A stretch of 38,139 bases of DNA from Sphingosinicella sp. (GTDB lineage Bacteria > Pseudomonadota > Alphaproteobacteria > Sphingomonadales > Sphingomonadaceae), in NCBI RefSeq assembly GCF_013911755.1, contig NZ_JACESP010000031.1, positions 1-38,139 on the forward strand, written 5' to 3'. The position numbers and the translations under genes are program-made. Position 1 is the stretch's first letter. Each line of letters opens with the position of its first letter. The notes below the pieces were generated by a model, which made no database searches, was not told where the DNA came from, and saw only the letters and a program-made list of their open reading frames with translations. Positions 7,915-24,069 of this stretch are shown here, one piece after another.

Positions 7915-8799
7915 CTATCGGCCGCGAGATCGCTGGATAGACGGATGAATTCTTGAGGGCTCCTGTCGGATGGATGCAACTTCGACCGGCTTTCGCTCGC
8001 GCGTTTCCCTGACCATGGCAGGGCGAATTTGATCACCTCGGTCGACGTGGTTTTGCAGTTTCGTGGTCGCGACCTTCATAACACGCGAGATCGCTTCGGG
8101 ATTGTCGAACAATGCGGTTCGCACCACTGCCTCGATCACTCGCAACTGACTTTGCGCGGCTCGCTCGTTTCTGTCCCCGGACGCCGCGGCTCGGGATCGA
8201 GCCGAGCGCTCGTGAGTCTGTGACTGATCTCGGCCGGCCTCCCGGCTGAATGACGGAACGGCAGCCGGCGCGATGCTGTTGCGGCTCTTGTCTCGCTGTA
8301 GCCGATCCAATTCTTGTAGGTCGCGTTCGTTCGGCCGATATCCTCGTACTTCCAATCCTTGGCGACTGGCCTCGAGCCATGCTGCCCGGCGGAAGGCTTC
8401 GCTGCCAGTAAGATGAACATTCGACCACCCGCGATGCCGGGCGATGGCGACGAGATCACGCACGACCTCCTCACTCTCGCTCGAGGTGACAAGACGCCGT
8501 CCTTGGTCCCGAAATGCAGGCTCCTTCGCCCGGGCCGTCGTGAAGTAGGCCGGTTCGCCCGACCATTTGCCGGTCGACGAAAAGTAGCGCTTTTGCAGGG
8601 GCTCCGGTATGTCGCCGGCAGAAATTGATCGGGGCAGAACCCCCGCCCCCTCCTTGCCTTTGTTAGAGGTGCCGGGCTTCTTGGGAATGTCGTCACGCGT
8701 GTCTTTCCCAGAACGCGGTACGGACTGACCTTCACCAATCGAAATGGCATTGGCGCGCTTCCTGGCGCCCCGCGAATTCTCGGACTTCTCAGCGGACAT
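7915..8799 (-). CDS. LPD7-domain protein, detached relaxase C-terminal module
   Basis: A 294-aa basic protein and the last gene of the transfer operon. YFSSTGKWSGEPAYFTTARA, then FRDQGRRLVTSSESEEVVRD, SNVHLTGSEAFRRAAWLEAS and LEVRGYRPNERDLQELDRLQ make up a large polyvalent protein-associated domain 7 (LPD7). This domain normally sits C-terminal to relaxase or primase domains in TraI/MobA-like proteins. No nuclease motif is present. ATG at 8799 overlaps virD4 by 11 bp and has an AGGAAAGGA ribosome-binding region. Coupling to virD4 suggests it helps dock the relaxosome to the coupling protein; this is inference. Confidence 0.75.
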   Translation of the reverse strand: MSAEKSENSRGARKRANAISIGEGQSVPRSGKDTRDDIPKKPGTSNKGKEGAGVLPRSISAGDIPEPLQKRYFSSTGKWSGEPAYFTTARAKEPAFRDQGRRLVTSSESEEVVRDLVAIARHRGWSNVHLTGSEAFRRAAWLEASRQGLEVRGYRPNERDLQELDRLQRDKSRNSIAPAAVPSFSREAGRDQSQTHERSARSRAAASGDRNERAAQSQLRVIEAVVRTALFDNPEAISRVMKVATTKLQNHVDRGDQIRPAMVRETRERKPVEVASIRQEPSRIHPSIQRSRGR

Positions 8800-10753
8800 G
8801 GGCTGTCCTTTCCTGGATAATAGATGTGGATGGCTGCCCGACCGGTGGCAAAAGTGCCCGCTCGACCATCGCCGACACGAAGGCGATCGCGGCGGCCTCG
8901 TCGCCCGGGGGCGGTAGTTCGGCCAGGTCGCCCAGAACCAGCATGTCATTCGTGATCTCGGCCGCACCTGCCAGCTCGGCGTCGGTCATTTCCCGCATCA
9001 CAATTTCCTCCTGTATGGTCCCGCCCGAGCTTGTCGCCGGTTGCTGTGGGGCGCCGCTCAGACCGGGTGTACCAGCGCCCTGCCGCGCTGAAGCCGGCGT
9101 AGGTGGGGAAAGCATTGCCGCGATTGGACGGGCGGACGGCACAGGCGGAGCAACCACCCGTCGCGTGAAGCGTGGCATCCGGTAATAGGCGATCTTGCGC
9201 CCTCGAATTGGGGGGATGCCGGCGCGAAGGAGCAGGAGCTCGTTCTTCGGCAGCTGCATGAGCTCTTGCGGCAGCAGGAGCGCGCGGCGCTGATCAGATT
9301 CCGAGATGCTCCGGTTCGCCAGTAGCCCGTGGATGGTACGGCTGCGGGATTTCACGTTCATCGTGAAAAAGCCGAGCCGTTCGGAAAGTTCGTTCGCGAC
9401 CTTCAGCTCCTTAGGCGTGAAGACAACCTCGAGGCCGCAATTGGCGATGATCTCGTCGGTGACATCGGGACCGTAGATTGCGCGAAGCTGGGATCGGCTC
9501 TGAATGACCGGAACCAGGCGCAGGCCATAGCCGGCGACGTAGGAGAAGCCGCTCGCAATCACCGAGGCTTTGCCGAGCCTGGCGAACTCGTCGAGCAGGA
9601 CCAGGACCGGGACATTGCTAGCGCCCTCAGGAAGGTCGCGGGTGTTGAGATCCACGAGTTGCTGCAGGAACAGACTGTAGATCGGCGCGATGCGGTCGAT
9701 ATTGTCGGGCGACACGCCAAGGTAAATCGACATGCGCCGACGCCGCACCTCGCGCAGGTCGAAGTCGCTCTCCGAGGTGGCGGTATCCACCATGGGGTTG
9801 AGCCAGAGATTGAGCCGTGCGGTGATGGTCTGCTTGATCCCGGAAAAGGTGTTGTCCGAGGCCGAGGTGAAATCCTGGATCGCGGACACGCAGGCTTGGC
9901 TGAGGCGCTGGCCCACCCTGCGGGCTTCCTGAAGCGCTGCGGGAAGGTCGCTCTTGGGATCGCCAGTCGTGAGGCGGCGGTATATCTCGCCGATGGTGAA
10001 GGGCAGGCCCGGGTTGGATGCGACCAGGGCGCCGACGCCGACAAAGGCCGCTCGCGCAGCCTCCGCCCAGAACGGATCGGATCGCTCCGGCGCGGGGAAA
10101 AGCATGCCCGCGATCTTCTGCAGCTCGTTGACGACCTCGATGTCATCAGTCCGCCTGATGTGCGCCAAGGGGTTGTACCGCGCCGTCCGCCCCTCCGCAT
10201 CGAGCGGATCGAACAGGTGCACGGCCTGGCCGGCACGCGCACGATACCCCGCGCTTGCGCCCCAGTTCTCCCGTTTCACGTCGAGCACGACCACCGAATC
10301 TGGCCAGGTCAGCAGATTGGGAATGACGACGCCGACGCCCTTCCCCGCGCGTGTGGGCGCCTCGAGCAGAACATGTTCGCTCCCGCCGAATATCAGAAAA
10401 CGTCCAGCCTTGCGGCCGACAACGATGCCGGCAGCCGCGCGAAGGCCCTCCCGCCGGATCTCGCCTTCGCGCGCAAACCGGGCGGTGCCGTGCAATGCCG
10501 GCCCGCGGCGTAGGATCGCGATGGCCAGAAGTCCCACCACGATACCGCCTGCGAGAACCCCGCGCTTCAGCCACTCGATAAGCAGCGGGTCCGCCCGATA
10601 ATACCACAACCACGCGGGCAAGGCCGTGATGTCGGTGTTGGGGCCGATCTGGCCCATCCCAAAGAGGGCAACCAGCATGGCGATCGCGCAGCACGATATG
10701 GTGCCACCGGCAACGGCCAGGCCGATGATCCAGAAGTTACGCTGCACCGGCAT
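8789..10753 (-). CDS. virD4: Type IV secretion coupling protein VirD4/TraG
   Basis: The inner-membrane ATPase that passes the relaxosome to the secretion channel. Two N-terminal membrane segments (about residues 6-34 and 64-81) are followed by HGTARFA, the usual entry to the TraG/VirD4 domain. The Walker A variant is EAPTRAGKGVGVVIPNLL (about 131-148) and Walker B is VLVLLDEFARLG (383-394). Length 654 aa. The C-terminus after residue 560 is Pro-rich, then acidic, as in substrate-recognition tails. ATG at 10753 was chosen as the start of the hydrophobic N-terminus; it overlaps virB11 by 17 bp. Longer in-frame starts would lie further inside virB11. Confidence 0.92.
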   Translation of the reverse strand: MPVQRNFWIIGLAVAGGTISCCAIAMLVALFGMGQIGPNTDITALPAWLWYYRADPLLIEWLKRGVLAGGIVVGLLAIAILRRGPALHGTARFAREGEIRREGLRAAAGIVVGRKAGRFLIFGGSEHVLLEAPTRAGKGVGVVIPNLLTWPDSVVVLDVKRENWGASAGYRARAGQAVHLFDPLDAEGRTARYNPLAHIRRTDDIEVVNELQKIAGMLFPAPERSDPFWAEAARAAFVGVGALVASNPGLPFTIGEIYRRLTTGDPKSDLPAALQEARRVGQRLSQACVSAIQDFTSASDNTFSGIKQTITARLNLWLNPMVDTATSESDFDLREVRRRRMSIYLGVSPDNIDRIAPIYSLFLQQLVDLNTRDLPEGASNVPVLVLLDEFARLGKASVIASGFSYVAGYGLRLVPVIQSRSQLRAIYGPDVTDEIIANCGLEVVFTPKELKVANELSERLGFFTMNVKSRSRTIHGLLANRSISESDQRRALLLPQELMQLPKNELLLLRAGIPPIRGRKIAYYRMPRFTRRVVAPPVPSARPIAAMLSPPTPASARQGAGTPGLSGAPQQPATSSGGTIQEEIVMREMTDAELAGAAEITNDMLVLGDLAELPPPGDEAAAIAFVSAMVERALLPPVGQPSTSIIQERTAHVR

Positions 10754-11741
10754 CGCCCACCTTCGGGTGGAAATAGACCTCTTCGACCTCGAAGCGGCCG
10801 CCATGGCGCCGGGTCTGGACGACCACATCGATGAGCATGCGCAAAAGTCCGCGGATATCATCGCGCGCGAGATCTCGGCCGCCCTCGGATTCCTTGACCA
10901 GTAGCGTCAGCTGCTCGAAGGCGCCCGCGGCAGAGCCGGCATGGACGGTGGTGATCGAACCAGGGTGTCCCGAGTTGACGTTCCGCAAATAGAAGAAGGC
11001 GGTGCCGTCGCGCAGCTCCTGCAGCAGGATGCGATCCGGGCGCATGCGCAGCGCGCTTTCGAGCAGCTGCTTGGGACCGACCTTTGCAAGGCCCTGCCCT
11101 TCGCTCGAATAGACCAGGTGAACGACATTGCGATGGGGCACGATGAGTTCGCGCGTGTCCTCGATCGTAAGCAATCGCTCGTCGGGCGGGATGAGCTGGA
11201 TGAGCGCTTTCGCCAAGGTCGTCTTGCCGGACCCGGTTGCACCGCTGACCAGGATATTCTTACGCGCGGCGACCGCGATCTTGAAGAAGGCCGGCCAGTC
11301 CCCCGCGTCGCGAAGCGCCACCAACGCAGTGTCGGTTTCGGTAAGGCCCCGGGCGCTCGCGCGCGTCGTGTCAAAGAGGCCAGCGCGTGCGAGCTGGTCG
11401 ATCGGCAGGGTTACGGTCGAGGGCTTGCGTATCGTAAAGGACGGGCAGCCGCTCGGCGTCACCGACGGGATCACGATCTGGCAGCGCTCGCCGCCTGGAA
11501 GGACGGTCGAACAGATCGGCGTCTGCCCATCGATGTCCTGGTGCGTGAAGCTTGCCGCGGCGACGGCGAGCGTTCCAAGCCACTCGCTGTCCAGTTCAGG
11601 CAACTCATGCCATCGCCACCCCTGCCGGTCCTCGATCCCCGCCTCGCCCGGGCGGTTGATGACGAGCTCGGTTACATCATCCGGCTCCAGCAACGGAAGA
11701 AGCGGTTCGAGATAATGGCGGAGGACGGCGGTATCGCGCAT
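10737..11741 (-). CDS. virB11: VirB11 hexameric traffic ATPase
   Basis: The cytoplasmic AAA+-like ATPase of the type IV secretion system. Walker A is GATGSGKTT (residues 167-175). The Asp box is LLTIEDTREL, Walker B is RILLQELRDG and the His box is NSGHPGSITTVHA, all in canonical order. Length 334 aa, normal for the family. ATG at 11741 lies 3 bp after the virB10 stop. In the usual picture it works with VirB4 and VirD4 to power pilus assembly and substrate transfer. Confidence 0.94.
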   Translation of the reverse strand: MRDTAVLRHYLEPLLPLLEPDDVTELVINRPGEAGIEDRQGWRWHELPELDSEWLGTLAVAAASFTHQDIDGQTPICSTVLPGGERCQIVIPSVTPSGCPSFTIRKPSTVTLPIDQLARAGLFDTTRASARGLTETDTALVALRDAGDWPAFFKIAVAARKNILVSGATGSGKTTLAKALIQLIPPDERLLTIEDTRELIVPHRNVVHLVYSSEGQGLAKVGPKQLLESALRMRPDRILLQELRDGTAFFYLRNVNSGHPGSITTVHAGSAAGAFEQLTLLVKESEGGRDLARDDIRGLLRMLIDVVVQTRRHGGRFEVEEVYFHPKVGDAGAA

Positions 11742-11744
11742 GGT

Positions 11745-12974
11745 TTACCGCCGCAGCTCCAGATTGTAGACATCGGCGAAGTTGAAGTCCTTGGCGACGA
11801 AGATACCGACCTCCTCGCCCTGGTTCTTTTTCAGCACCGGCCGGATGTTGATGTTGTTCTGGAGCGCGATCGCGGCCCCTTCGCTCGGCGCACGCGTGAC
11901 ATTGTTGAAATTGCCGTTGCCGCTCGATGCGGCCTGCCCGGCAATATAGGCGGCGTCATCGACGAGCGAGAGCAGGAGCGCGCCGCCGAACCGTGCCCAG
12001 AAGAAGCTGTCGACCGCCCCAGCGAGCCCGGCGCGCCCAAGGGCATCGGAACCAGGCGAGGCAAGGTCGATGCGGACGCCTTGCGGCGTCACCGCCCGCG
12101 TCCAAAGCACAAAGAGGCGGTTCTGCCCTTGTTGGATCCCCCCGCGATATTCGCCGAGCACGCGCGTACCCTTTTCCATCAGCACGACCCGGCCATTCTC
12201 GGAGTAGACATCGCGGGGGATCAGGCAGGATGTATATCCAGGCTGCGCGGAGTTGATGGCCGTCTGAAGGACGCAAGGGATCAATGTGCCCGCGGTGATC
12301 AGGAAGTTCCGATTGGGGAGCATCGAGGCTCGCGCTTCGCCGATCGCCGAACTCTGCCGCAGCACGTCCAGCGCGTTGGGCGCCCCGCCCTCGGCACTCG
12401 CTGGAATTCCTGAAATCTCGGCCGGTTGCGCGCCCGAGGGAACTCCCGCTGGGTCCTGAGAGGGCCTGCCGCCGAGATTGCGCCCGCCATAGGCGATGAG
12501 TGTAGACCGTCGCGCCTGGTCAGCGAGGTTGGGCCGGGCCGCCGCCCCTCCTGTCGGTCCCGGCGCGGCTCCCGCCTGCATGGCAGGGACGATCTGACCG
12601 TCGGGGCCAGGAACGGCCGTTTGAGGATTGAGAACCGGCGCGTTGGGATCGCTTCCGCCGACGCCCAACGGTCGAGGCTGCGGCGCAACGGCTGCGTAAT
12701 CGACGGTTTCCCGCGCGACGATATCGCGCCGTTCACGGGCCGCCCCGCCCGGGGCCGTGAGATCACGATTGGAGGCCTGCTGGCTTGTCCCGGAATTCAC
12801 CCACAAGATGCCGAGCACCATTGCGGTGCCGGCAAAAATCAGAGCCGTATTGCGCTTGGCAGGCGTCATTCCGCCGATCGGCTCGATACCGCGCTCGTGC
12901 AGAATCTCGTCCCTTTCCGGTGTGACATCGGCGCCGGGCAGAGGGCGCGAAACAGGGGATGGATCTTCGGCCAT
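11745..12974 (-). CDS. virB10: VirB10/TrbI core-complex protein
   Basis: Spans the cell envelope and links the inner-membrane ATPases to the outer-membrane ring. One membrane segment lies near residues 43-60 (ALIFAGTAMVLGILWV). A Pro/Gly/Ala-rich periplasmic linker follows. The conserved TrbI/VirB10 domain starts near GTLIPCVLQTAINSAQPGYT and contains RDVYSENGRVVLMEKGTRVL. The small helical antenna region matches SFFWARFGGALLLSLVDDAA. The 409-aa length is normal. ATG at 12974 lies 3 bp downstream of the virB9 stop. Confidence 0.93.
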   Translation of the reverse strand: MAEDPSPVSRPLPGADVTPERDEILHERGIEPIGGMTPAKRNTALIFAGTAMVLGILWVNSGTSQQASNRDLTAPGGAARERRDIVARETVDYAAVAPQPRPLGVGGSDPNAPVLNPQTAVPGPDGQIVPAMQAGAAPGPTGGAAARPNLADQARRSTLIAYGGRNLGGRPSQDPAGVPSGAQPAEISGIPASAEGGAPNALDVLRQSSAIGEARASMLPNRNFLITAGTLIPCVLQTAINSAQPGYTSCLIPRDVYSENGRVVLMEKGTRVLGEYRGGIQQGQNRLFVLWTRAVTPQGVRIDLASPGSDALGRAGLAGAVDSFFWARFGGALLLSLVDDAAYIAGQAASSGNGNFNNVTRAPSEGAAIALQNNINIRPVLKKNQGEEVGIFVAKDFNFADVYNLELRR

Positions 12975-12977
12975 GGC

Positions 12978-13835
12978 TCATTCCTGCGGATGTGTGATGG
13001 TGCGCTCGACATGGGGCGAGCCGGTGTTCGTCCCATGGTCGGCCCCATAAGGCTCCGGTGCCTGATTATAGATGCACAGCACCTCCCCGCCTCGCCGAAG
13101 GCGCAATTGACGCGCCACTAGATGGACGACGACGAATTCGTCGCGGACGTCGAAGGGGACCAGCGTTTCCGACCCGTCGGGTCGCACCAGATATATAGCT
13201 GGCACTTCGCGGTTCGCCGGGAAACGCAGGACCGTGAACTGCCCGTTGTCGGAGACTTCCGACGGCTGGAGCTCGCTGGCGCCCTGAACCTTGTAGTTCA
13301 TGTTGCGAGGCCCCTCGATGACCCCATGATCGAGAGCGCCGCGAACGGCCCGGGCCTCCAGGGTAGCCGCCTGCATGGCCATCTGCGCGGCCCTGAGACG
13401 CTCCGCGCGTGCGGCGTCATCCTTGGGGTATCGGAACCGGACCTGAAAATAGGCTTGCCCGTTGCGGCCCGTGATGGGCCCGCTCCGGGCGGTCAGCTCA
13501 AATGCATAGCTGCGCAGTTCGCCGCCTCGCGACGTGGTGACTATGAGATTGGTCGGTCCGGCCCGCTCGCGGGGTTTGAGGAAGAGGATATGGCCGGCAA
13601 CGGCCACCTCCCATGAGACCGTATCGCCGAGCGCGACATGCTGGATCGTCTCATCGTCGCTCAAGACAATTTGTGTTGCCGTCCGGAAGGTGCCGACAAT
13701 CCGATAGACCTGGGTCTCCTCATATTCGACGAACTTGACCCGCGGGTCTGATGCAGCACCTCGCGGAACCTCGACCGCGCGCGCCGCCGCTACGGGTACG
13801 AGCGCGCAAATGATGACGGCAGAGAGCGCCTTCAC
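12978..13835 (-). CDS. virB9: VirB9/TrbG core-complex protein
   Basis: Periplasmic partner of VirB7 and VirB10 in the outer-membrane ring. The chosen start is GTG at 13835: GGAGG lies 7 bp upstream, the GTG overlaps the virB8 stop (GTGA), and it gives a clean signal peptide (VKALSAVIICALVPVAAARA). The protein then carries the family blocks YRIVGTFRTATQIVLSDDET, TNLIVTTSRGGELRSYAFEL and YKVQGASELQPSEVSDNGQF. Length 285 aa. An upstream in-frame ATG at 13952 would lie inside virB8 and would remove the signal peptide from the N-terminus. Confidence 0.92.
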   Translation of the reverse strand: MKALSAVIICALVPVAAARAVEVPRGAASDPRVKFVEYEETQVYRIVGTFRTATQIVLSDDETIQHVALGDTVSWEVAVAGHILFLKPRERAGPTNLIVTTSRGGELRSYAFELTARSGPITGRNGQAYFQVRFRYPKDDAARAERLRAAQMAMQAATLEARAVRGALDHGVIEGPRNMNYKVQGASELQPSEVSDNGQFTVLRFPANREVPAIYLVRPDGSETLVPFDVRDEFVVVHLVARQLRLRRGGEVLCIYNQAPEPYGADHGTNTGSPHVERTITHPQE

Positions 13836-14530
13836 CGGATCACCTCCGGATCGGCACGGTAGTTCTCGACCTGGAATCCCAGCGGGTTCCGGTAGCGATC
13901 GCCCTCCGCCATGGGCGCGTTGGCGTAGGCGAATGTGATCGTGGCGATCCAATCGGTGTTCTGCGTGTCGGTCTCGGTCAGGACTGTCCGGGTGAAGCGG
14001 ACGTTGGCGACCCGATCGTTGATGAAGGCAATGTTGCGAACGCGCGCTTGCACGACCGCATTCTTGCCCCAGACATTTTGGGGACTTGCACCATTGTTGC
14101 TGCTGTAAAAGCGCGCCCAGCGCTGCTGCTCGGTCGGTTGCGAGAGGATAGTCACAAACCGAAAGTTTTCCTCGGCCGCTGCCGGAATCCAGCTTTCGCG
14201 GGTTCTTACATACTGAGCGAGGAAATATTTCGTGACCGCCTCATCATAGCGCATCGGCCGCTGGGTGAGCGCGGTCTGGACATCCACCGCGCCGGTGGTC
14301 TGATTGACGCGAATAACATAGGGCACGACGGTCTTCAGGGGCGTCAATGCGGCAACCGCAAAGATCGATGCCGCAGCCAAGAGTGAGGCGATGGCTGCGA
14401 TGCTCCAGGCGATACGGGTCGAGCGCAGGGCGGTCCGGATCCTGTCCTGATCCCAGCTTCGTGCGTCCCGGAAATAGCGTTGCAGCCCCGATGCCGGCAC
14501 GGCTTCTGATCGATCATCAGCAGCTCGCAT
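13832..14530 (-). CDS. virB8: VirB8 inner-membrane scaffold protein
   Basis: A bitopic inner-membrane protein that nucleates the type IV secretion inner complex. A short cytoplasmic N-terminus (YFRDARSWDQDRIRTALRST) leads into one membrane helix near residues 40-62 (AWSIAAIASLLAAASIFAVA). The periplasmic NTF2-like domain follows, with PYVIRVNQTTGAVDVQTALT and the conserved Y-x-V-Q/Y-R-E-W-like region near DEAVTKYFLAQYVRTRESW. Length 232 aa. ATG at 14530 overlaps the lipoprotein gene by 14 bp. Confidence 0.93.
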   Translation of the reverse strand: MRAADDRSEAVPASGLQRYFRDARSWDQDRIRTALRSTRIAWSIAAIASLLAAASIFAVAALTPLKTVVPYVIRVNQTTGAVDVQTALTQRPMRYDEAVTKYFLAQYVRTRESWIPAAAEENFRFVTILSQPTEQQRWARFYSSNNGASPQNVWGKNAVVQARVRNIAFINDRVANVRFTRTVLTETDTQNTDWIATITFAYANAPMAEGDRYRNPLGFQVENYRADPEVIR

Positions 14531-14858
14531 AGTGCGGCTCCCTTGGTGCGACCGAGACCTTGTCTCCCGAGGTTGATGGCGATGGCACTGCGGGCGGCGG
14601 GGGCGGATCGCCGTCTCGTGGACGGGACAAAGGTGGTATGGGCGGCGCGGCTCTCGGCGCCGTGGTGGCAGGCACCGGCGAGCCGGGCAGGACGCTTCCG
14701 TAGATGTTTACATCGCGCAGGTGACGCCCATTGCACACCGCCAGCTTCTTGGGTCCGGAAGCACAGCCGACGACACCCAGCACAGCCAGACAACCACCTG
14801 CGCAAGCTAGACCGTAGCGGAGGCTCGAGGTGGAAATTCGCGGAAAAAGGAAAGTCAT
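14517..14858 (-). CDS. virB7: VirB7-like lipoprotein
   Basis: A 113-aa protein with a lipobox-like LGVVGCASG (lipidated Cys at residue 32) after a hydrophobic stretch. A Pro-rich, low-complexity C-terminus follows. Position between virB6 and virB8 and the lipobox indicate VirB7, the outer-membrane lipoprotein that anchors VirB9. The sequence outside the lipobox is not well conserved in this family, so position carries much of the weight. C42 (LAVCNG) could form the disulfide seen between VirB7 and VirB9 in the Agrobacterium system (inference). Confidence 0.75.
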   Translation of the reverse strand: MTFLFPRISTSSLRYGLACAGGCLAVLGVVGCASGPKKLAVCNGRHLRDVNIYGSVLPGSPVPATTAPRAAPPIPPLSRPRDGDPPPPPAVPSPSTSGDKVSVAPREPHYASC

Positions 14859-15815: not shown

Positions 15816-15836
15816 GTAAGGCTCCAAGGCGCTCGA

Positions 15837-16055
15837 TTATTTCGAAAGTGACCGCATCTTGTTATCGAGGGTCCGGAGGCTTTCAGCGTTGGAACATTCC
15901 TGTTCATTGGGATGTGAACCGTCAGCACACGCTTTGATGAGTTCTCTAAGCTCTTCGGGGTGGGACGTTAGATAGTCCTTTCCGCGCGGCGCTCGCTCGC
16001 AACTTGTCAGCATTCCCGCTGCGGCAACCCCAAGCAGGAGAGATTTTGCAGTCAC
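15837..16055 (-). CDS. eexN: EexN-like entry exclusion lipoprotein
   Basis: A 72-aa lipoprotein with the lipobox LTSC (Cys 19). The mature part reads KDYLTSHPEELRELIKACAD then HPNEQECSNAESLRTLDN, matching the EexN-family pattern of a short tail with two cysteines and an N-A near the second. EexN-type proteins reduce redundant transfer into cells already carrying the element. ATG overlaps the virB5 stop (ATGA, 16052-16055). Position between virB5 and virB6 matches the usual place of this gene in such operons. Confidence 0.78.
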   Translation of the reverse strand: MTAKSLLLGVAAAGMLTSCERAPRGKDYLTSHPEELRELIKACADGSHPNEQECSNAESLRTLDNKMRSLSK

Positions 16056-16768: not shown

Positions 16769-19186
16769 TCATCCTTTCCTGATCGATGCAGACCGACGCT
16801 GCTGGTGAAAGAGAGGCAGCCATTTCGCCGGGTTGTCGCCGACATCCGCGCGAATAGCATCGAGAAGCGTCACGGTTTCCGTGGTGCCCGAGAGCACAGC
16901 CAGTTCGTCAGAGAGCCCGCCGAGATCCAGCTCCACCACGATCGAGTCATGACCCTGCTTGATGAGGAACCGGCGCGATTCCGGGTTCAGGTCATGACGG
17001 ATGAGCTTGAATTCTGCCTGGGTAAGGCCCAGCCCGTCGACATAATCCGCCGCACGGCCATAGGGGTTGGGAAGCAGAATCTTGGTCGCGACCTGCTCCA
17101 TGATGCTGTGCGAGATGTCGGAGCGCAGCGCATCGGCTGGGCTCTGCGTGCCGAAGACCAGGAAGGCGTTCTGCTTACGATAAGTCTTCAAGCCATCCTG
17201 GGCGAAGGCGCGGAAAGCGTCATCATCCAGCGCCTTCCAGAACTCGTCGATGTCGATCACCAGCCTCCGGCCGTCCAGGAGGCCGTCGATGCGATGAAAC
17301 ATGTACATCATGATCGGCGTCCGAACCTCCGGATTGTCGAGGAAATCGGTCATGTCGAAACCGAGGAACGGCGCATCGAGCGACAGGGCATCGCTCTCGT
17401 TGTCGAAAACCCAGCCCAGCGGTCCGCCTCGCGACCATTTCTCAAGCCGTGCGCCAATCCCTTCCGGATCGCGCTGGCCGAGCAACTGGCGCAGAGCGAG
17501 GATGGATCGATTCTCCGGCGCGAGCCGCCCCATAGACGCCAAGCCTTCGTCGATCATGCGCTCTTGGGTGACGCCGAGCGTACCGCCAGCCGGCGTCACC
17601 AGCTGCCTGATCAGACGGCCGAGGAAGACGAGGTTGCGCGGTCCATATTCAAGCGCCCGCAAGGGCGCGAAGCCGGTGGGCTCGCCATTCTTCAGCGTCA
17701 GATAGATTCCGCCAGCAGACCGCACGTAGATCTCGGCGCCGCGATCCTTGTCGATGAAGATCTGCTGGGCGCCTGTCTTCTCGAGCTGCGCCATCAGGAA
17801 GTTCTGGACGACGGTCTTGCCCGCGCCCGAGGGACCAATGATCAGCGTGTGGCCGAGATCCCCCACGTGGAAGTTGAAATAGTAGGGTGATTGCGCGGCC
17901 GTTTTCATCAACGCGATCGCCGAACCCCAATGATTTCCGCTCGGCCGCCCCGCAGGGTAAGTGTGGAAGGGTGCCAAGGCGGCGAAATTCCGCGAGGTGA
18001 TCGCCGCCGGCCGCGCCCGCCACGCGAAATTTCCGGGAAGCTGAGCCCAGAAGGCCGCCTCGAGCGCCGGCCCTTCCCTCGCTGATACCAGGCCAGCATC
18101 GGCGAGCGCGGCCCGCGCCGCCGACAGATTATCGGCGAGGCGCTTCTGGTTCTCAGCGAACACGGCGAGCGAGAAATGATGTTCGCCCAGGACGAACCGA
18201 TTGCTCTGAAGATCGTCGGCCGCGTCCTCAAGGTCGAGCGCCTGGCTTGCGGCCGCGTCTTCGGTGGAGGCCATCTGGTTCTGTCGCCGGCGAAGCCTTT
18301 CGGCCGCCCGCGCCTTGCTCATGAAGGTGAAGGACTGCGACACGACGAACGCGAAATCCTGGCCCAGCAGAGCGTTCATCTGACCGGGGCGGGTGAGCGC
18401 GGGATATTCCCGGATGCCGAAAATCCCCACCCAGCGGCTCGCATCATGAGCGCGGATCTCGACCGTCTCGCGTCCGAAGATCAGCCGCTCGCCGTAGAGT
18501 GCCGACCCAAGATGGCCTCGGACCAGCGGCACCTTGGCCCGGGCGCCCATCATGACCTGCTCGAGCACTTCGAGGGGCCTGGAGAATATGAGGCCATTTT
18601 TCTCATAGAGGGCGAGCCGCGCGGGGCTGCACCGCCGAAGGAGCTTTTCAATGTCGCGCGCCTTCTCCTCGAAGCGGGCTAATTCGTCGGGGTCGACTTC
18701 CTCGTCGACTGCCTTGGCCTTGGCGATCCGCTTGAGGAGCAGCCCCGTCCGATCGGCCGAACCAACTGCGGGTCGCATGATCAGCGTCAAATAATGCTCG
18801 TTGACGAACATGCGATTGGCGGTGACGCGCGCGCGATATTTGCCGTCCAGATCGGCTGCGAAGGCTGAGCGGAATTCACCTTCGGGATAGTCGTCGACCG
18901 GGTGGCGAACGATGTGGGTCCAGAGCGCGAGCCGATCGTCGGCGATGTTGCGCCAAGTGCCATTGAGTTTCTCGTGCCAGTCGTTGAGGTGGATCGGATC
19001 CGCGGTTTCGAAAGCGAGCCCCTCGAGGCGGAACATCATCATCAGATCGCCGCTATCGAGCGCGATCACCTCGGACGTCACATGGCGTGCGTAGGGCAGA
19101 TAGCGCCCAGGCTCGGCCTCTTGCCGCAAGATGCGCCACGGCGTCTTGCGCGGCGGGAGCTGGGTCGCCGTGCTAGCCACGCGCAA
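16769..19186 (-). CDS. virB4: VirB4 ATPase
   Basis: The large inner-membrane-associated ATPase of the type IV secretion system. Walker A is GPSGAGKT (residues 451-458), followed by a Walker B-like LVIDIDEFWKAL and the block LVFGTQSPADAL, all in the family order. The N-terminal half has the VirB4 features: YLPYARHVTSEVIALDSGDL and the block LIFGRETVEIRAHDASRWVG. Length 805 aa, normal. The start overlaps virB3 by 14 bp. Confidence 0.95.
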   Translation of the reverse strand: MRVASTATQLPPRKTPWRILRQEAEPGRYLPYARHVTSEVIALDSGDLMMMFRLEGLAFETADPIHLNDWHEKLNGTWRNIADDRLALWTHIVRHPVDDYPEGEFRSAFAADLDGKYRARVTANRMFVNEHYLTLIMRPAVGSADRTGLLLKRIAKAKAVDEEVDPDELARFEEKARDIEKLLRRCSPARLALYEKNGLIFSRPLEVLEQVMMGARAKVPLVRGHLGSALYGERLIFGRETVEIRAHDASRWVGIFGIREYPALTRPGQMNALLGQDFAFVVSQSFTFMSKARAAERLRRRQNQMASTEDAAASQALDLEDAADDLQSNRFVLGEHHFSLAVFAENQKRLADNLSAARAALADAGLVSAREGPALEAAFWAQLPGNFAWRARPAAITSRNFAALAPFHTYPAGRPSGNHWGSAIALMKTAAQSPYYFNFHVGDLGHTLIIGPSGAGKTVVQNFLMAQLEKTGAQQIFIDKDRGAEIYVRSAGGIYLTLKNGEPTGFAPLRALEYGPRNLVFLGRLIRQLVTPAGGTLGVTQERMIDEGLASMGRLAPENRSILALRQLLGQRDPEGIGARLEKWSRGGPLGWVFDNESDALSLDAPFLGFDMTDFLDNPEVRTPIMMYMFHRIDGLLDGRRLVIDIDEFWKALDDDAFRAFAQDGLKTYRKQNAFLVFGTQSPADALRSDISHSIMEQVATKILLPNPYGRAADYVDGLGLTQAEFKLIRHDLNPESRRFLIKQGHDSIVVELDLGGLSDELAVLSGTTETVTLLDAIRADVGDNPAKWLPLFHQQRRSASIRKG

Positions 19187-19523
19187 AGCCCTTGCGCTTC
19201 AGCCCGGCGACCGGGAGCGGCGAATAGGAACTTCCGCCCCACCAGGCGCGGTTCCGGCTGCGCGCCTTGGTCATGGTCCACAGCCACAGCAGCCGGAAAG
19301 CATTGGCATCGTGCCGCACGATGAGCCGCGCCACGGCAAGACAGGCGCCTCCAATGGCGCCGGCATAGAGCGGATTGCCGCTGACGATCAGCGTGAGACA
19401 GGCAGCAAGCGCGATCGGCAGCGAGGCTTCGAGCGGTACGCCGAGCCACATCGTAGGTCGCGTAACCGCCAGAAACAGCGTTTCCTCGCGTAGCCGCTCG
19501 TCCGGGGCGGCGCTCCCCTTCAC
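19173..19523 (-). CDS. virB3: VirB3 inner-membrane protein
   Basis: A small membrane protein that partners VirB4. The GTG start at 19523 overlaps the virB2 stop (GTGA) and gives a 116-aa protein. It begins VKGSAAPDERLREETLFLAV then TRPTMWLGVPLEASLPIALA, where the R-P-x-M-x-x-G-V-P motif is the VirB3 hallmark. Two adjacent hydrophobic segments follow (LPIALAACLTLIVSG and PLYAGAIGGACLAVARLIV). An ATG further upstream in the same frame lies inside virB2 and is not supported. Confidence 0.92.
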   Translation of the reverse strand: MKGSAAPDERLREETLFLAVTRPTMWLGVPLEASLPIALAACLTLIVSGNPLYAGAIGGACLAVARLIVRHDANAFRLLWLWTMTKARSRNRAWWGGSSYSPLPVAGLKRKGFARG

Positions 19524-19858
19524 GCGCCACCCGTGATCGTGTCGACGATCCACTGCGCGCTGAAGACGATGAAGATTCCGACGATGACGGTCACGAGCAG
19601 GCCGAGGCTGGCGCGCCCCGTGAAGAACATGAAACCGACGATGACGACCGCAATCACCGCGATCGTCTTGGCGAAGGTCCCGGTGAGCCAGGTCTTGATG
19701 TTCTCCGCCATCGATGTGATGCCGTCGGCGCCTTGCGCGTGCGCAGGATCGCTGAGCAATAGCGAGACAAGCAGCGCCAATGCCGCCACACCGACGATGC
19801 GCACCAGAAGTCGCGCCCACTGGGGCCATCCGCCCAAGGGGGCGGTGATTGCTGTCAT
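19520..19858 (-). CDS. virB2: VirB2 major pilin
   Basis: Pilin precursor of 112 aa. The long N-terminal leader contains a hydrophobic stretch (LLVRIVGVAALALLVSLLLS) and ends in DPAHAQG, a likely signal peptidase site. Two further hydrophobic helices follow: KTIAVIAVVIVGFMFFTG and LGLLVTVIVGIFIVFSAQWI, the standard VirB2 layout. ATG at 19858 has AAGGAC about 8 bp upstream and overlaps the virB1 stop by 4 bp. A longer in-frame start at 19939 lies inside virB1. Confidence 0.92.
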   Translation of the reverse strand: MTAITAPLGGWPQWARLLVRIVGVAALALLVSLLLSDPAHAQGADGITSMAENIKTWLTGTFAKTIAVIAVVIVGFMFFTGRASLGLLVTVIVGIFIVFSAQWIVDTITGGA

Positions 19859-20520
19859 GGATGCAGTCCTTTCAAAGATGCTGCCCCGTCTCCGAACACC
19901 ATGAGCGAGGCCTGGCTCGCCCGCGCGGCCGTGTTCCATCCGGTAGCGAGCGGCGTCGAAACAGTGGTGTCGGGTGGCGGGGTGAAGGCCGGCGCAGTCG
20001 GGGCAATCGCCGATGCAGTGGCCACCGGCGCCGTCCCCCGGATCAGGGGAATGACGACTGACGCGCTAGCATAGACCCTGGCGACATAGCCGTTGCGAAA
20101 GCCGCGCCGCCGGTCGCCGGTATTGTACAGCGAAAGCGCCGTCGCGATCGCATGATCTCGGCTCGGCGCGATGCGCATGACCGCCTGATAGTTCTTGGCA
20201 AGGACGCGGGCGGCCGCCGCCAGATTGCGGCACGGCTCGAAGGCATCTTCGACCGAAAGCTCCAGCCATCCGAGATTGGCGCTGTTGATCTGCCCCAAGC
20301 CGAGATCGATGTTGTAGCCTTGACGGATCAGGCTTCGGGCCGCCGCAATCGCCTGCGCCTTGGTCGCGGGTCTTGGCTGGCGCACGCCGGGACTATTGAC
20401 GCCGATGGCAAGGCTGTTGAACCGGCTCTCGGTGTGGACGATCGAAAGGAGCGTCTCGGGCGCAACTGACGGGGCGCATGCTCCTGCAATCGACAGGAGG
20501 CTGGCGACATCGAGAATCAT
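19855..20520 (-). CDS. virB1: VirB1 lytic transglycosylase
   Basis: Predicted to open peptidoglycan locally for channel assembly. The SLT-type catalytic glutamate is E31 in IVHTESRFNSLAIGVNS, and GLGQINSANLGW and ALSLYNTGD are the later conserved blocks of lytic transglycosylases. Length 221 aa, with a Pro/Ala-rich tail. No clear signal peptide is visible apart from a weakly hydrophobic start (MILDVASLLSIAGACAP). It overlaps the trbM-like gene by 4 bp (20517-20520) and virB2 by 4 bp. Confidence 0.92.
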   Translation of the reverse strand: MILDVASLLSIAGACAPSVAPETLLSIVHTESRFNSLAIGVNSPGVRQPRPATKAQAIAAARSLIRQGYNIDLGLGQINSANLGWLELSVEDAFEPCRNLAAAARVLAKNYQAVMRIAPSRDHAIATALSLYNTGDRRRGFRNGYVARVYASASVVIPLIRGTAPVATASAIAPTAPAFTPPPDTTVSTPLATGWNTAARASQASLMVFGDGAASLKGLHP

Positions 20521-20858
20521 TGGACGCTACCGTTCAGTCGCTCGATGTTGGCCAGCGAGTAGGTCTGGCGGCGGCCATCGTTAAACGTGATCTCGACCCG
20601 CCGGCGAAATGCGGAATCGCGATCATAGACCTTACTGCGGGCGACACCGCCGCCACTGCAACCGGGAAAGGCGCCGCCGGTGGCCAAGCGCTTCCAGAGC
20701 TTGGTCATCGGCGGCACGCACTGCGCGTATTGGGTCGCGCCACCGGGATTGGAAAGGCAGATGAGAACCTGGCAACCCAGATCGTTCGCTCGCGCCGGAG
20801 CAGTGGGAAGGGCGGTGGCGAAGGCAAGCATCGCCAAGCCGTAAATCGCACGTTGCAT
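20517..20858 (-). CDS. TrbM/KikA-like exported conjugation protein
   Basis: A 113-aa protein with a signal peptide (AIYGLAMLAFATALPTAPARA). A cysteine-rich block follows: DLGCQVLICLSNPGGATQYA then QCVPPMTKLWKRLATGGAFP and GCSGG. The pattern C-x4-CLS-x-PGG, then C-x-P-P-x-x-x-x-x, then P-x-C resembles the TrbM/KikA family of conjugation accessory proteins. The C-terminal basic part (RVEITFNDGRRQTYSL) is not typical of the family, so the call is moderate. ATG at 20858 excludes eight residues of an upstream in-frame start. It is the first gene of the transfer block, 49 bp after phyH. Confidence 0.65.
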   Translation of the reverse strand: MQRAIYGLAMLAFATALPTAPARANDLGCQVLICLSNPGGATQYAQCVPPMTKLWKRLATGGAFPGCSGGGVARSKVYDRDSAFRRRVEITFNDGRRQTYSLANIERLNGSVQ

Positions 20859-20907
20859 TGGGTTTCCCCCCGCGAGACACACCTCCCGCGTCGGGAAATG
20901 GCGTCAG

Positions 20908-21852
20908 CTATCCGTTGGATTTCACCTCTCTTTTGTTCCGACCCCGCTCGATTTCGGCAATCCCCCCAACCGGGGGGAGTTGCTCGGTTTGCTGTCGCAG
21001 GAACTCGGACAGAGCGCCTTCCTGATCGGGTCGGAGAGCGTCGATCGCGGCCAGATGATCCGGCGGTTCGCCCCCGAGCAGGATGGACGGGCATTGCCCG
21101 TCGTAATTCCCGAGATTGGGGCGATGCTGCTGATAGCCGACCAGCGCGGCAAGCTCAGGGTCGAAAGCACTGGCCACGTCGGGGGGATAGGTCAGCCACT
21201 GGTTCTCATAGGGCTTCAGCCAGCCAAGGCAGTAGCTGACGATGATCCCGCGGCGCACCGCGTCAGTATGGTTCGGGCCAGCGCCATGGAGGGTCGATCC
21301 CAGAAATATGATCGCCGATCCCGGGTCGGCTTCGATGGCGACCGGTTCCTGGCCGCCGTCACCCTGCCCGCCATTGTGGCTCCCTGGCCAAATGAGCGTG
21401 GCCCCGTTCTCGGCCCTGAAAGGAGTAATCGGCCACATCACGTTGACGAGATATTCGAGTTCGCCTGTCGGCCCGCGCCACATGTCCTGGTCTCTGTGTG
21501 GAAATTGCGCTGGCGCTCCCGGATGCAATTCGAGCGCCTGCGTAAGGTTGAGCTGGACGGTCTCGCACCAAGGCTCGAGAAAGGCGCGGACAAGGCGCAT
21601 GACGGCAGGGTTCCGGACAAGACTTTCTACCGCGGGCGCCCGCTTCAGCAATCCCCCGAAGCGCTTGGTGCGGGGCCCGTAGAAACCTCCCTGGCAGAAT
21701 GGGGTGGCGGCAAAACGCGGGTGAAGCGATCGACTGATGTCCTCGATCCGCGACCCGGGCACGACGTCCTGCAAGACGCAGAAGCCCTGTCGCCGCAGTG
21801 TCTCATCGCTTCTGGTTGCAGCAGGGGTTTTGCGAGGCGCAATCGTTGCCAT
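20908..21852 (-). CDS. Phytanoyl-CoA dioxygenase (PhyH) family Fe(II)/2-oxoglutarate oxygenase
   Basis: A 314-aa non-heme iron oxygenase of the PhyH family. The metal-binding triad candidates are H119 and D121 (FPHRDQDMW) and H189 (GSTLHGAGPN). A 2-oxoglutarate-binding Arg would be R200 or R201 (AVRRGIIVSY). The WPITPFRAENGATLIWPGSH block is typical of PhyH proteins. The substrate is unknown. It starts 11 bp after luxI and is therefore probably co-expressed with it, so a hydroxylation step on the acyl-homoserine lactone or its precursor is a natural idea (inference). ATG at 21852 was chosen; the longer in-frame start lies within luxI. Confidence 0.82.
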   Translation of the reverse strand: MATIAPRKTPAATRSDETLRRQGFCVLQDVVPGSRIEDISRSLHPRFAATPFCQGGFYGPRTKRFGGLLKRAPAVESLVRNPAVMRLVRAFLEPWCETVQLNLTQALELHPGAPAQFPHRDQDMWRGPTGELEYLVNVMWPITPFRAENGATLIWPGSHNGGQGDGGQEPVAIEADPGSAIIFLGSTLHGAGPNHTDAVRRGIIVSYCLGWLKPYENQWLTYPPDVASAFDPELAALVGYQQHRPNLGNYDGQCPSILLGGEPPDHLAAIDALRPDQEGALSEFLRQQTEQLPPVGGIAEIERGRNKREVKSNG

Positions 21853-21863
21853 GACTTTCCTCC

Positions 21864-22475
21864 TCACGCTGCTGCGGCAAGATCGGAAAGGCCGACGGGG
21901 CGCAAAATACCGTTCGCGCGCAGCTGCTCGCGCGTTTGGTCGTCCACATCGATTTGCAAGGCGACGAGGCTTCGCCCCTCCTCGGACGTGGGAAGACCCA
22001 ATGGTCGGCAGATCCAGCCGAAACTCAGGATTTGCTGGAACCATACCCACTCCGCGACCCCTGTGAAGCTACGGATCTGATGGGCAAGGGCATATTCAAC
22101 GAGCGCCGTGACCAGCTGATTGCGGACCTCGAGACGTTCTCGGGCGCGTAATTTGCGCGCAAGGCAGAAGCGGGTGATCTCCAGAATGGCGGCGCCACGA
22201 GGCGGCGCCTCTTTGCAAAGGTTTGGGAATATCGTGCCGAGAATATGATCGTGCGTCGTGGGCAGGAGCCGTGCAGATGCCCGGTGGTCGCCATCGTCCC
22301 CGGTTATGACGATATAGATAGCGCGATCATCGTCGAACTGATCGACTTCATAACGGCCAGCGACGACCGGCACATTCCAGCGCAGAAGATCGACGAACAC
22401 CCGCTTACGCTCCTCGAACATGGCGCGAAACAGGTGATGTTCCATGGCTTGTGAAAAGCCGGTCTCTATGTGCAT
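21864..22475 (-). CDS. luxI: Acyl-homoserine-lactone synthase (LuxI family)
   Basis: Makes the diffusible quorum-sensing signal from S-adenosylmethionine and an acyl carrier. Invariant family residues are present: an Arg in EERKRVFVDLLRW (R23 or R25), F27, W33, D45 and D48 (YEVDQFDD), R69 (SARLLPT), E99 (AILEITRF) and R102. Length 203 aa, normal. The acyl chain length cannot be read from sequence. The start has a strong GGAGG 7 bp upstream. A perfect 16-bp palindrome lies 55 bp upstream and is a candidate lux box. Confidence 0.93.
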   Translation of the reverse strand: MHIETGFSQAMEHHLFRAMFEERKRVFVDLLRWNVPVVAGRYEVDQFDDDRAIYIVITGDDGDHRASARLLPTTHDHILGTIFPNLCKEAPPRGAAILEITRFCLARKLRARERLEVRNQLVTALVEYALAHQIRSFTGVAEWVWFQQILSFGWICRPLGLPTSEEGRSLVALQIDVDDQTREQLRANGILRPVGLSDLAAAA

Positions 22476-22529
22476 GACAGCCTCCTTTTTGAGGACCGTC
22501 AGTCGATCAGAGGCGGCTTTCTTGCGTTA

Positions 22530-22545
22530 TCCCCAGTTCTGGGGA
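22530..22545. promoter_or_regulatory. Lux-box-like palindrome upstream of luxI
   Basis: TCCCCAGTTCTGGGGA is a perfect 16-bp palindrome, 2 bp past the luxR1 stop and 55 bp before the luxI start. A 2-base centre is too tight for a good hairpin and no T-run follows, so a protein-binding site is more likely than a terminator. LuxR-type proteins bind palindromes of about 16-20 bp near the -35 region of luxI promoters. Confidence 0.6.
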
Positions 22546-22547
22546 GA

Positions 22548-23291
22548 TCATCGGCCGAACACATCGGCGAAGCTGATTTGCCCGTCGAACAAGGCACGAA
22601 TGGCAAGTAGGGTGCGCCTGGTGACACCGTAGCGGTCGCGCGCATCCTTCACATGCTGGATCACTGTTTCCTGGCCGATGCCGAGGATCTGGCTGATTTC
22701 CCAGTCGGTCTTGCCCCGCGCGACCAGCGCCACGCATTCGGCCTGCCGTTCGGTCAGGCTCGGACATTCGGATTGCGGCGCGTGGATCCGGGAAATCTTG
22801 CGTGCCGCTTCGAACGCGAAGCTGCCGACGAGCTGCACGAGCGGCAGTTGCCGATGGTCGAGCATCTCGCCCGCCGCCATCGCGAAGGAACAGGATCCAT
22901 TGAGCTCGCCGGGTATATGGGCCGGAACGGTGAAGCCGTCGCCCAGCCCGGCCTCGTACGCTTCTGCCAGGATCGAGCGATCGGCGGCCGTCAGAGAGAT
23001 GATCGACTGAACCGCCGACCAGGCAAAGCCCACATTGGTGCGATGGCTGGCGCGGTGGATCGGGTCGCTTGCATAGAGGCGCCTCGCCTGGAAGCGGTCC
23101 ACCCAGTCTGGCGGATAGTCGATGATGTGGACCGAGCGGGCAGCGGGCTTTAGGTCGACATGATGGACCAGGGCATAGTGCCGGAAGCCCATAGCCTTCG
23201 TGATCTCGGCCATCAGGTCCGACAAGGCTGCGCTGTCCCTGATCACGCCAGCGACAGCGCAAAAATCCTGAACTTGCCCAAGCCCGATCAT
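22548..23291 (-). CDS. LuxR-family quorum-sensing regulator (luxR1)
   Basis: A 247-aa LuxR-type receptor. The N-terminal autoinducer-binding domain keeps W63 and the D76-P77 pair (YPPDWVDRF, then YASDPIHRA) and W91; the usual Tyr after the first Trp is Phe67 here. The C-terminal helix-turn-helix runs SLTERQAECVALVARGKTDW and then EISQILGIGQETVIQHVKDA. It sits directly upstream of luxI. ATG at 23291 was chosen since it starts 16 bp after luxR2 and gives the usual length; an in-frame ATG at 23339 overlaps luxR2. Confidence 0.88.
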   Translation of the reverse strand: MIGLGQVQDFCAVAGVIRDSAALSDLMAEITKAMGFRHYALVHHVDLKPAARSVHIIDYPPDWVDRFQARRLYASDPIHRASHRTNVGFAWSAVQSIISLTAADRSILAEAYEAGLGDGFTVPAHIPGELNGSCSFAMAAGEMLDHRQLPLVQLVGSFAFEAARKISRIHAPQSECPSLTERQAECVALVARGKTDWEISQILGIGQETVIQHVKDARDRYGVTRRTLLAIRALFDGQISFADVFGR

Positions 23292-23307
23292 CACTCGGCC
23301 GGCGAGC

Positions 23308-24069
23308 TCAGAGAAGCGCTTCCATGTTGAGATGACCATCGCGAACCGCGCGCAGCACCAGCTGCGTGCGTCGTCGCACGCCATAGCGCCTGCGGGCCGA
23401 TTCAACATATTCGTGCACGGTGTCGCGGCTCAGACCAAGGATCTGGCCGATCTCCCAGTCGCTTTTCCCTTGCGCGACCAGCGCTATGCATTCGACCTGT
23501 CGCGGGCTGAGCGGGACGTGGGCCAATGTCTTCGCTGCCTCGCCCAGCAGCTCGCGGGCACGATCATAAGCGACCGAGCCCAGCAGACGAGCGGTCAATA
23601 TCTCCTCTGCGCTGAGTGGCTCGTCGACAGATCGGGCAGCGGTGAAGATGGCTTCGGGTTCGCCCGGGGTCCGGATCGGCAAACTGTAGCCTGACGCAAG
23701 GTCATGGTCCCTGGCGCGTTCGAGGATGCTTCGCTGGCGCGGCGTAAGCTCCAGCACTTCGCCGATCCGGTCCCAGGCGAGCCCCGACGGGGTACGGGCG
23801 CATGCCGCATGGATGGGATCTTCCAGATAATGGCGCTCTTCGAGCACTTCTTCGAGCCAGGGCGAGGGATAGGTCGTGAGAAACAATGTTTCCTCGCCTC
23901 CTCGCCTAAGGTCGACGTTATGAAGCAGCGTGAACCAGCGGAAGCCGAATTCGCGCGCAGCCGCATCGATCGTGCCATGCAATTCGCCGAGGTTTCCAGC
24001 GCGCCCACATTCTGTTGCAAAGCGCGTAAGATCATCAAGGCGGCCGCAGTCTTTAATACTTTTCGCCAT
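23308..24069 (-). CDS. LuxR-family quorum-sensing regulator (luxR2)
   Basis: A 253-aa LuxR-type protein, first gene of the long minus-strand unit. The ligand domain has W71, D84-P85 (YLEDPIHAA) and W99, with Val75 where Tyr61 is usual. The DNA-binding domain is PLSPRQVECIALVAQGKSDW then EIGQILGLSRDTVHEYVESA. It is clearly paralogous to luxR1 downstream, notably in the DNA-binding part (G-K-x-D-W-E-I-x-Q-I-L-G and A-R-x-R-Y-G-V-x-R-R-T). The replaced ligand-pocket Tyr could alter ligand choice (inference). A Fur-box-like element overlaps its candidate promoter. Confidence 0.88.
   Translation of the reverse strand: MAKSIKDCGRLDDLTRFATECGRAGNLGELHGTIDAAAREFGFRWFTLLHNVDLRRGGEETLFLTTYPSPWLEEVLEERHYLEDPIHAACARTPSGLAWDRIGEVLELTPRQRSILERARDHDLASGYSLPIRTPGEPEAIFTAARSVDEPLSAEEILTARLLGSVAYDRARELLGEAAKTLAHVPLSPRQVECIALVAQGKSDWEIGQILGLSRDTVHEYVESARRRYGVRRRTQLVLRAVRDGHLNMEALL

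Follow-up and report, generated by a model that had tools for sequence, protein, structure and literature searches.

Candidate control sites and an optional sender cassette at the head of the topology T conjugation operon of sphingomonads

Introduction

Plasmids of the Sphingomonadaceae carry a conjugation locus in which quorum-sensing genes precede a virB-type operon, a gene order that Gan et al. named topology T in 2015 (PMC4288048). The portion of that paper available here gives luxR-luxR-luxI for S. chlorophenolicum L-1, SYK-6, MM-1 and others, and lists RW1 as having three luxR solos and no luxI. That phyH goes with luxI was known earlier (PMC3704786, likewise available in part). We analyzed a locus of this kind in Sphingosinicella sp., on a stretch of 38,139 bases (b) (NZ_JACESP010000031.1), hereafter the window, which is an entire contig (C25) of a 3.63-Mb draft genome in 48 contigs. 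Its minus strand carries, from 24069 to 7915, luxR2-luxR1-luxI-phyH-X-virB1 to virB11-virD4-LPD7, bringing together two LuxR-type regulators, an acyl-homoserine-lactone (AHL) synthase, a dioxygenase-family gene and a type IV secretion system (T4SS) (Table 1).

The locus is a real, conserved and already named arrangement, and the arrangement itself, published in 2015, is not new. The available text on topology T gives the order and its upstream variants; the palindromes, the luxI-less versions of this head and the link to parA described below are absent from it. This analysis adds candidate control sites, shows LuxR2 to be the constant member and identifies the sender cassette as optional. We propose, at a probability of roughly 0.5, that the head is modular and consists of a DIV/luxR2 pair, an optional sender cassette (luxR1-luxI-phyH) and a transfer operon with its own control block.

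Results

LuxR2 is the constant member of the head, and luxI comes and goes. A LuxR2 match was found in all 26 listed plasmid records selected by VirB4 (at least 80% identity and 92% query coverage; the identity bands themselves contain 28 records), over 99–100% of the query in 25 of them. Twenty of these plasmids have luxI within ~6.5 kb of virB4, frameshifted in one (CL5.1, L106); it is missing from RW1, AntQ-1, MPO218 pUPO218, S. bisphenolicum pBAR4 and two S. yanoikuyae plasmids. Scanning species genomes with a LuxR2 alignment yielded 57 loci, 37 of them with a LuxR2 of at least 52% identity; 33 of the latter hold virB4, with luxI adjacent in 23 and absent in 10. As luxR2 is present in all 33 by selection, the independent evidence of its constancy is that of the VirB4-selected plasmids. 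The virB4 match of the 10 luxI-less loci contains no internal stop and runs off the contig in L148. On one contig, found twice (L072/L174), luxR1 stops at residue 77 and phyH starts at residue 131, as from a single deletion, and in the RW1-like kind X directly follows luxR2. We also considered pUPO218 as a proven luxI-less conjugative plasmid and rejected it; the available literature passage shows pIBU218 to be conjugative instead.

The luxI label changes nine times on a VirB4 tree of 40 rows, at least five of the changes being forced by well-supported branches, seven times on a LuxR2 tree of 41 rows (four forced) and five times on an initial VirB4 tree with 28 rows (two forced). The rooting is unsure, with two outgroup rows inside the clade on the 40-row tree and long branches on both larger trees; L172, which adjoins the root or the outgroup on both of these, is without luxI. 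The history of the cassette may have been a single gain with many losses or several gains. When four luxI-less genomes were searched for any Autoind_synth gene, two had none, one had another luxI and one had a partial match (24.3 bits with neighbours against a cut-off of 24, profile positions 35–101 of 183). The window's own genome holds a second AHL synthase gene (contig C1, 156696–157205), so crosstalk is possible. Two S. yanoikuyae plasmids (L128, L129) look like natural recombinants: they have two LuxR2-type genes, a SYK-6-like head standing before a further luxR2-X-virB. According to the available part of a published study (PMC11024222), the synthase genes that UT26 and SYK-6 carry on plasmids respond to deletion of rsh, and the LuxI of the SYK-6 plasmid shares 87% identity with that of the window; the SYK-6 orthologue is therefore probably expressed.

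The candidate control site of the transfer operon is palindrome B, of the form TCCCCC...GGGGGA. Of the 53 rows examined (two of which, L077 and L164, are one record), 47 have an X match, and B lies 105–122 b ahead of X in every one of these. With a looser pattern, B precedes virB1 in all 33 loci, including the 10 without luxI, and for this reason the virB operon probably has a control region of its own. In the luxI-bearing rows of the EP60837 kind, B stands ~8–14 b behind the phyH stop and outside the gene (7/7 checked). Between eight luxI-bearing and nine luxI-less rows, a comparison that left out the S. yanoikuyae-type rows, L148, L170, L172 and L174, the identity per 20-column block is 0.27–0.47 upstream of B and 0.77–0.95 from B to the start of X; this jump shows that the block from B travels with X. 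No B was found within 200 b before X in any of five related T4SS with an X match but without luxR2. In the SYK-6-type plasmids (L092–L097), B has a C-run extended by 2 b, and the match to phyH breaks in two at its last residues. A scan for terminators found no site between phyH and X and a single site overall, against 3.4 expected by chance; that site is weak and lies within phyH (21330–21314). Since no terminator-like site separates phyH from X, read-through from phyH into virB is possible. Sigma-70 promoter-like sites numbered two, against 1.0 expected, with none at A or B.

The lux-box candidate of luxI is palindrome A (TCCCCAG-NN-CTGGGGA), located behind the stop codon of luxR1. It occurs in all 23 luxI-bearing loci, exactly in 19 and nearly so in four that keep TCCCC-N6-GGGGA, and in 19 of 19 loci of an earlier set, one of them with a mismatch. 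Its first base lies 70–83 b before the start of the luxI match in 11 topology T loci, and the copy in the window is the sole exact one in the genome. The centre of A, CAG-NN-CTG, resembles what we take to be the tra box. A palindrome like A, TCCCCATTTCTGGGGA, lies at about –100 before luxI in two of 19 other luxI loci (among L023–L041). In order-1 Markov replicates of the window, A, B and palindrome C (below) appeared 0, 0.03 and 0 times per replicate.

Copies of B are also found away from the transfer operon. The pattern TCCCC-N8-GGGGA occurs one to three times in each of 12 complete plasmids, and the reversed pattern in none of them. One copy precedes parA by 361–396 b, upstream of a small open reading frame (ORF), in 10 of 11 plasmid stretches and on contig C42 of the window's own genome, 11 of 12 in all; the exception, L203, has no usable parA start. 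In the annotated cases, parA is followed by parB, then by a gene annotated as MobC, mobilization protein, CopG regulator or hypothetical, and then by a relaxase. Directly after the parA copy of B stands an invariant palindrome, AGTCTGCTTGAGCAGACT, present in 11 of 11 aligned rows (L199, 4963–4980 on C42) and perhaps a ParB or parS-like site. A further copy of B lies near a gene beginning MINFAKFEIIGRIG, putatively ssb-like, in four stretches and in W24.

Upstream of luxR2, the divergent ORF DIV was found in 27 of the 33 T4SS loci, ~1.3 kb away in L149. It has no Pfam or NCBIfam match above the cut-off, and its AlphaFold model, of low confidence (mean predicted local distance difference test score 58.5), was not used. 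Between DIV and luxR2 lies palindrome C, a single occurrence in the whole genome; it accompanies DIV in 25 of 27 loci and is missing from all six that lack DIV (one of these, L168, is cut by the contig end). Counted by records, C was found in 12 of 13, and the exception, S. naphthae, shows no DIV either. As C and DIV co-occur, C is a candidate operator of DIV, and the ORF probably encodes a regulator that binds it.

Site D, also upstream of luxR2, resembles a Fur box and was found in 25 of the 33 loci with at most two mismatches and at either of two near-fixed distances, L168 being not assessable. At the same tolerance, the genome holds 14 sites of the D pattern, the window's own included, versus two of the reversed pattern. 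One neighbouring ORF was scanned at 10 of the 12 loci with a candidate ORF, of the 14 D loci: four were iron- or redox-linked (FTR1 permease, TonB plug, catalase, cytochrome bd), four belonged to other families (GGDEF, metallo-beta-lactamase, glycosyltransferase, pyridine nucleotide oxidoreductase) and two matched no family. D is a weak candidate for a Fur box, and iron might conceivably act on the transfer head.

The proteins of the head are conserved and under purifying selection. The ratio of nonsynonymous to synonymous change (dN/dS) is 0.08–0.14 for luxR2, luxR1, luxI and phyH (window versus L007, L102 and L103). Compared with nine relatives, the DNA-binding part of LuxR2 is 88–100% and its ligand part 50–86% identical; for LuxR1 and five relatives, the values are 77–99% and 60–95%. 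Both regulators keep W57, D70, P71, W85 and G113, and PhyH has the Fe(II)-binding HxD...H, its HRDQ and HGAG aligning with AusE 5ybl.

The sequence-only reading, made when the window was first examined, had described quorum-sensing genes heading a complete T4SS operon, and the ORFs and Pfam matches bear out its gene order, strand and coordinates. The junctions are as tight as it had said, –17 to +16 b, apart from 72 b between luxR1 and luxI and 49 b between phyH and X; these lengths depend on the start codons chosen in this analysis. Completeness of virB1 to virB11 holds by Pfam for 10 of the 11 genes. VirB1–6, VirB8–11, VirD4 and LPD7 all matched, whereas the virB7 candidate has no Pfam match and is placed by position and lipobox; an EexN-family gene had been overlooked. 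The name "trbM-like" for X did not survive, as neither X nor any of six homologues has a TrbM match in Pfam or NCBIfam. The contig carries virB1 to virB11 (virB7 via position), virD4 and a MOB relaxase, features of a conjugative MPF_T plasmid, in keeping with the earlier view of a plasmid-type conjugation locus of sphingomonads. The same order, sought in other sphingomonad plasmids as that reading had suggested, is present in seven named ones and so goes beyond chance; an eighth has it with phyH split by an IS3 element.

Table 1. Genes and candidate sites of the transfer region and of the opposite contig end, in window coordinates
Feature	Position	Strand	Description
DIV	24291..24860	+	ORF of 189 aa, upstream of luxR2 and divergent from it; probable regulator
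Palindrome C, GACACTTT-N10-AAAGTGTC	24190..24215		Between DIV and luxR2; candidate DIV operator
Site D, TGCGAATCGTTCTCA	24146..24160	-	Fur-box-like; upstream of luxR2
luxR2	23308..24069	-	LuxR-type regulator, the constant one; Pfam autoinducer-binding and GerE domains
luxR1	22548..23291	-	LuxR-type regulator; Pfam autoinducer-binding and GerE domains; start chosen here
Palindrome A, TCCCCAGAACTGGGGA	22530..22545		Lux-box candidate of luxI
luxI	21864..22475	-	AHL synthase; Pfam PF00765 (Autoind_synth)
phyH	20908..21852	-	Fe(II)/2-oxoglutarate dioxygenase family; Pfam PF05721
Palindrome B, TCCCCCCGGTTGGGGGGA	20961..20978		Within the 3' end of phyH and ~120 b ahead of X; candidate virB operator
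X	20517..20858	-	Small protein, exported-looking; first transfer-operon gene
virB1	19855..20520	-	Lytic transglycosylase; Pfam SLT
virB2	19520..19858	-	Pilin; Pfam TrbC
virB3	19173..19523	-	Pfam VirB3
virB4	16769..19186	-	ATPase; Pfam CagE_TrbE_VirB
virB5	16052..16765	-	Pfam T4SS
eexN	15837..16055	-	Entry-exclusion lipoprotein between virB5 and virB6; NCBIfam NF033894, 38.7 bits, cut-off 33
virB6	14871..15827	-	Pfam TrbL
virB7 candidate	14517..14858	-	Proline-rich ORF, lipobox-like LGVVGC; basis position and lipobox
virB8	13832..14530	-	Pfam VirB8
virB9	12978..13835	-	Pfam CagX
virB10	11745..12974	-	Pfam TrbI
virB11	10737..11741	-	ATPase; Pfam T2SSE
virD4	8789..10753	-	Coupling protein; Pfam T4SS-DNA_transf
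LPD7-domain protein	7915..8799	-	Pfam LPD7
Relaxase	367..1548	+	Opposite contig end; Pfam Relaxase; best NCBIfam MobP1, below cut-off
NikA/MobC-like relaxosome protein	3..434	+	Truncated by contig end; Pfam NikA-like

In the draft assembly, a ParA gene lies on contig C42 and an RPA gene on C34; searches of the window gave no Rfam match and no tRNA. Beyond the lux head, the minus strand at 24965–32340 carries genes for a Gp_dh/DapB-like oxidoreductase, a thymidine-phosphorylase-like protein, a beta-CASP metallo-hydrolase, a phosphoribosyl pyrophosphate (PRPP) synthetase-like protein and a HAD P-type ATPase. In pSPHCH01 and S. yanoikuyae plasmids, too, PRPP synthetase and thymidine phosphorylase genes precede the lux head, partly with an MBL-fold gene. 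Adjoining the ATPase gene is an IS3-like transposase with integrase core and HTH_21 domains (32449–33345, minus), followed by a multihaem cytochrome-like protein (35546–36493, minus) and, at the contig end, a ferredoxin/NAD-binding reductase (36984–38138, minus). Beside the relaxase, DUF6088 and AbiEii genes (1716–3366, plus) form an AbiE-like toxin–antitoxin pair that pSPHCH01 has too, and directly behind the LPD7 gene lies a gene for a protein with HEPN/RES N-terminal and RES domains, possibly a toxin (6603–7877, plus).

Discussion

The modular reading can be put as follows. The window would hold the transfer region of a topology T conjugative plasmid, with DIV and luxR2 divergent and C between them as the probable operator of DIV, which would act as a regulator. 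The genes luxR1-luxI-phyH would form a sender cassette that is optional and has a palindrome (A) of its own; judging by position and precedent, a LuxR protein with AHL would bind A and drive autoinduction of luxI-phyH. The operon X-virB1 to virB11-virD4-LPD7 would open with the control block that starts at B, a site present throughout the clade and presumably active. Cell density would then raise conjugation through autoinduction and read-through from A, atop a promoter at B. Quorum control of transfer is a plausible added input on these grounds, though an unproven one.

Several observations weigh against this reading. The identity jump at B is a breakpoint among close relatives and by itself no sign of constraint; the clade-wide recurrence of B, down to L172 with its X of 57% identity, is the better sign. 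In the window-type rows, B lies within the phyH coding sequence, a possible cause of its conservation, and the spacing of its half-sites varies, being mostly 18 b and 20 or 21 b in the SYK-6-type rows and L168. Across the whole genome of the window, the B pattern shows no enrichment (five sites versus four reversed), and two relatives' genomes show little (7 versus 3 and 7 versus 6). Some heads or operons in the clade are broken: phyH or luxI is interrupted in some plasmids, luxR2 of TKS is broken next to IS6100 and virB4 of pBAR4 is cut short at IS21. The usual Tyr at position 61 is absent from both regulators, replaced by Phe in 19 of 19 LuxR1 rows and by Val or Ile in 29 of 29 LuxR2 rows; we take this number and those of the conserved residues above to follow TraR. 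Compared by eye, A on its own axis does not fit the canonical lux box, NNCT-N12-AGNN (PMC7432010). Lastly, the stretch around the parA-side copy of B is kept in six of six ParA-type plasmids without a LuxR2 match (limit 1e-30), a 56-b query giving 90–100% identity over 89–100% of its length in each; the strict pattern was confirmed in both of the six that were searched for it, and S. baderi SC-1, the host of one of the six, has luxR2 on another plasmid. This disfavours LuxR2 as the only binder of B and leaves LuxR2 and a KorB-like ParB as its candidate binders.

Copies of B stand ahead of parA, with parB and the relaxase downstream, and in some cases close to an ssb-like gene. B would therefore more probably serve a backbone regulator, either LuxR2 or a KorB-like ParB, as its operator than belong to an AHL switch alone. 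That a KorB-like ParB represses transfer, partition and ssb genes through B, with the lux genes acting mainly on themselves or on other targets, is a possibility that we hold tentatively. Its support comes from the three settings of B (the T4SS head, the stretch before parA and the neighbourhood of the ssb-like gene) and from retention of B with ParA in the absence of LuxR2; in addition, RK2 KorB, which has been compared with ParB, represses replication and conjugative transfer genes (PMC11790492, available in part). It sits poorly with the five related T4SS that have no B before X, with an S. yanoikuyae record that has B at X and no strict copy at parA, and with WTD-1, where this parA-parB is present and the only B lies at parA, none being found in the stretch upstream of virB1 of its 62%-type T4SS. 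We regard it as rather unlikely that LuxR2 is the protein that directly controls virB, parA-parB and the ssb-like gene from B while LuxR1 serves A, the luxI-less plasmids then being listeners or ligand-free. The nearly frozen DNA-binding domain of LuxR2, the half-sites TCCCC/GGGGA common to A and B, the want of B before X in the related T4SS without luxR2 (5/5) and the lack of a full-length other luxI in three of four luxI-less genomes would fit such a role, and as a sole binder LuxR2 is weakened by the ParA-type plasmids that keep B without it. Six control plasmids without LuxR2 have no B-type site (6/6); since the ParA list does not include them either, they cannot separate LuxR2 from ParB, and one of them, W15, has three sites of the reversed pattern.

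The sequence-only reading had instead taken luxR2 through LPD7 as one density-controlled transcription unit. Genes on a single strand with gaps of –17 to 72 b and the want of a terminator-like site between phyH and X agree with it, and yet A stands before luxI, B stands before X irrespective of luxI, and 10 of 33 relatives do without luxI altogether, which makes a single unit improbable. Of the strong independent promoter and terminator between phyH and X, named at the time as evidence to the contrary, only half has a counterpart: there is a conserved candidate control region and no terminator-like site. The varying half-site spacing of B makes an RNA hairpin possible, and a G–C stem with a loop of variable size could serve as an attenuator or processing site in the leader transcript in place of a DNA operator. 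No U-run follows B, however, and a copy lies ~370 b before parA, so we consider an RNA role very unlikely.

What the modular reading offers is a gene order resolved into separable parts: a sender cassette, a constant receiver, a transfer control block and a plasmid-wide operator. A bolder version, which we find doubtful, is that plasmids repeatedly drop the sender luxR1-luxI-phyH and keep a LuxR2, its DNA-binding domain frozen and its ligand domain drifting, that reads B plasmid-wide at transfer, partition and ssb-like genes. If it held, such listener plasmids would time conjugation by the signals of others, or act ligand-free. Host records of plasmids with this operon name contaminated soil, activated sludge and similar sources. 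Among the literature matches listed, we found no test of the density-timed spread of these plasmids, nor, in open-access articles, a mating test of a luxI deletion or of this locus; the natural luxI-less plasmids are ready comparisons for mating assays.

Three described systems come closest to the arrangement proposed here. In the KorB regulon of IncP plasmids, one operator site lies at ssb. The KorB/OB regulon likewise has repeated operators at transfer and maintenance genes, as given in the available part of the source (PMC11790492); it differs in operator sequence, and the protein that binds B is putative. Dinoroseobacter shibae resembles the window in having a plasmid-borne virB-type T4SS, which is AHL-induced there, and differs in that the controlling luxI1 is chromosomal (PMC4886583, available in part). 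The likeness to TraR/TraI of Ti plasmids lies in a LuxR/LuxI pair on a conjugative plasmid and in inverted-repeat boxes upstream of the targets, the tra boxes of Ti plasmids being 18 b long in the part of the source available (PMC7856919). Scored against the TraR and TraI families, LuxR1 reaches 65.1 and LuxR2 39.2 bits with a cut-off of 250, and LuxI 67.9 bits with a cut-off of 292. Unlike the Ti system, the lux genes of the window stand at the head of a virB-type operon and comprise two LuxR regulators together with phyH.

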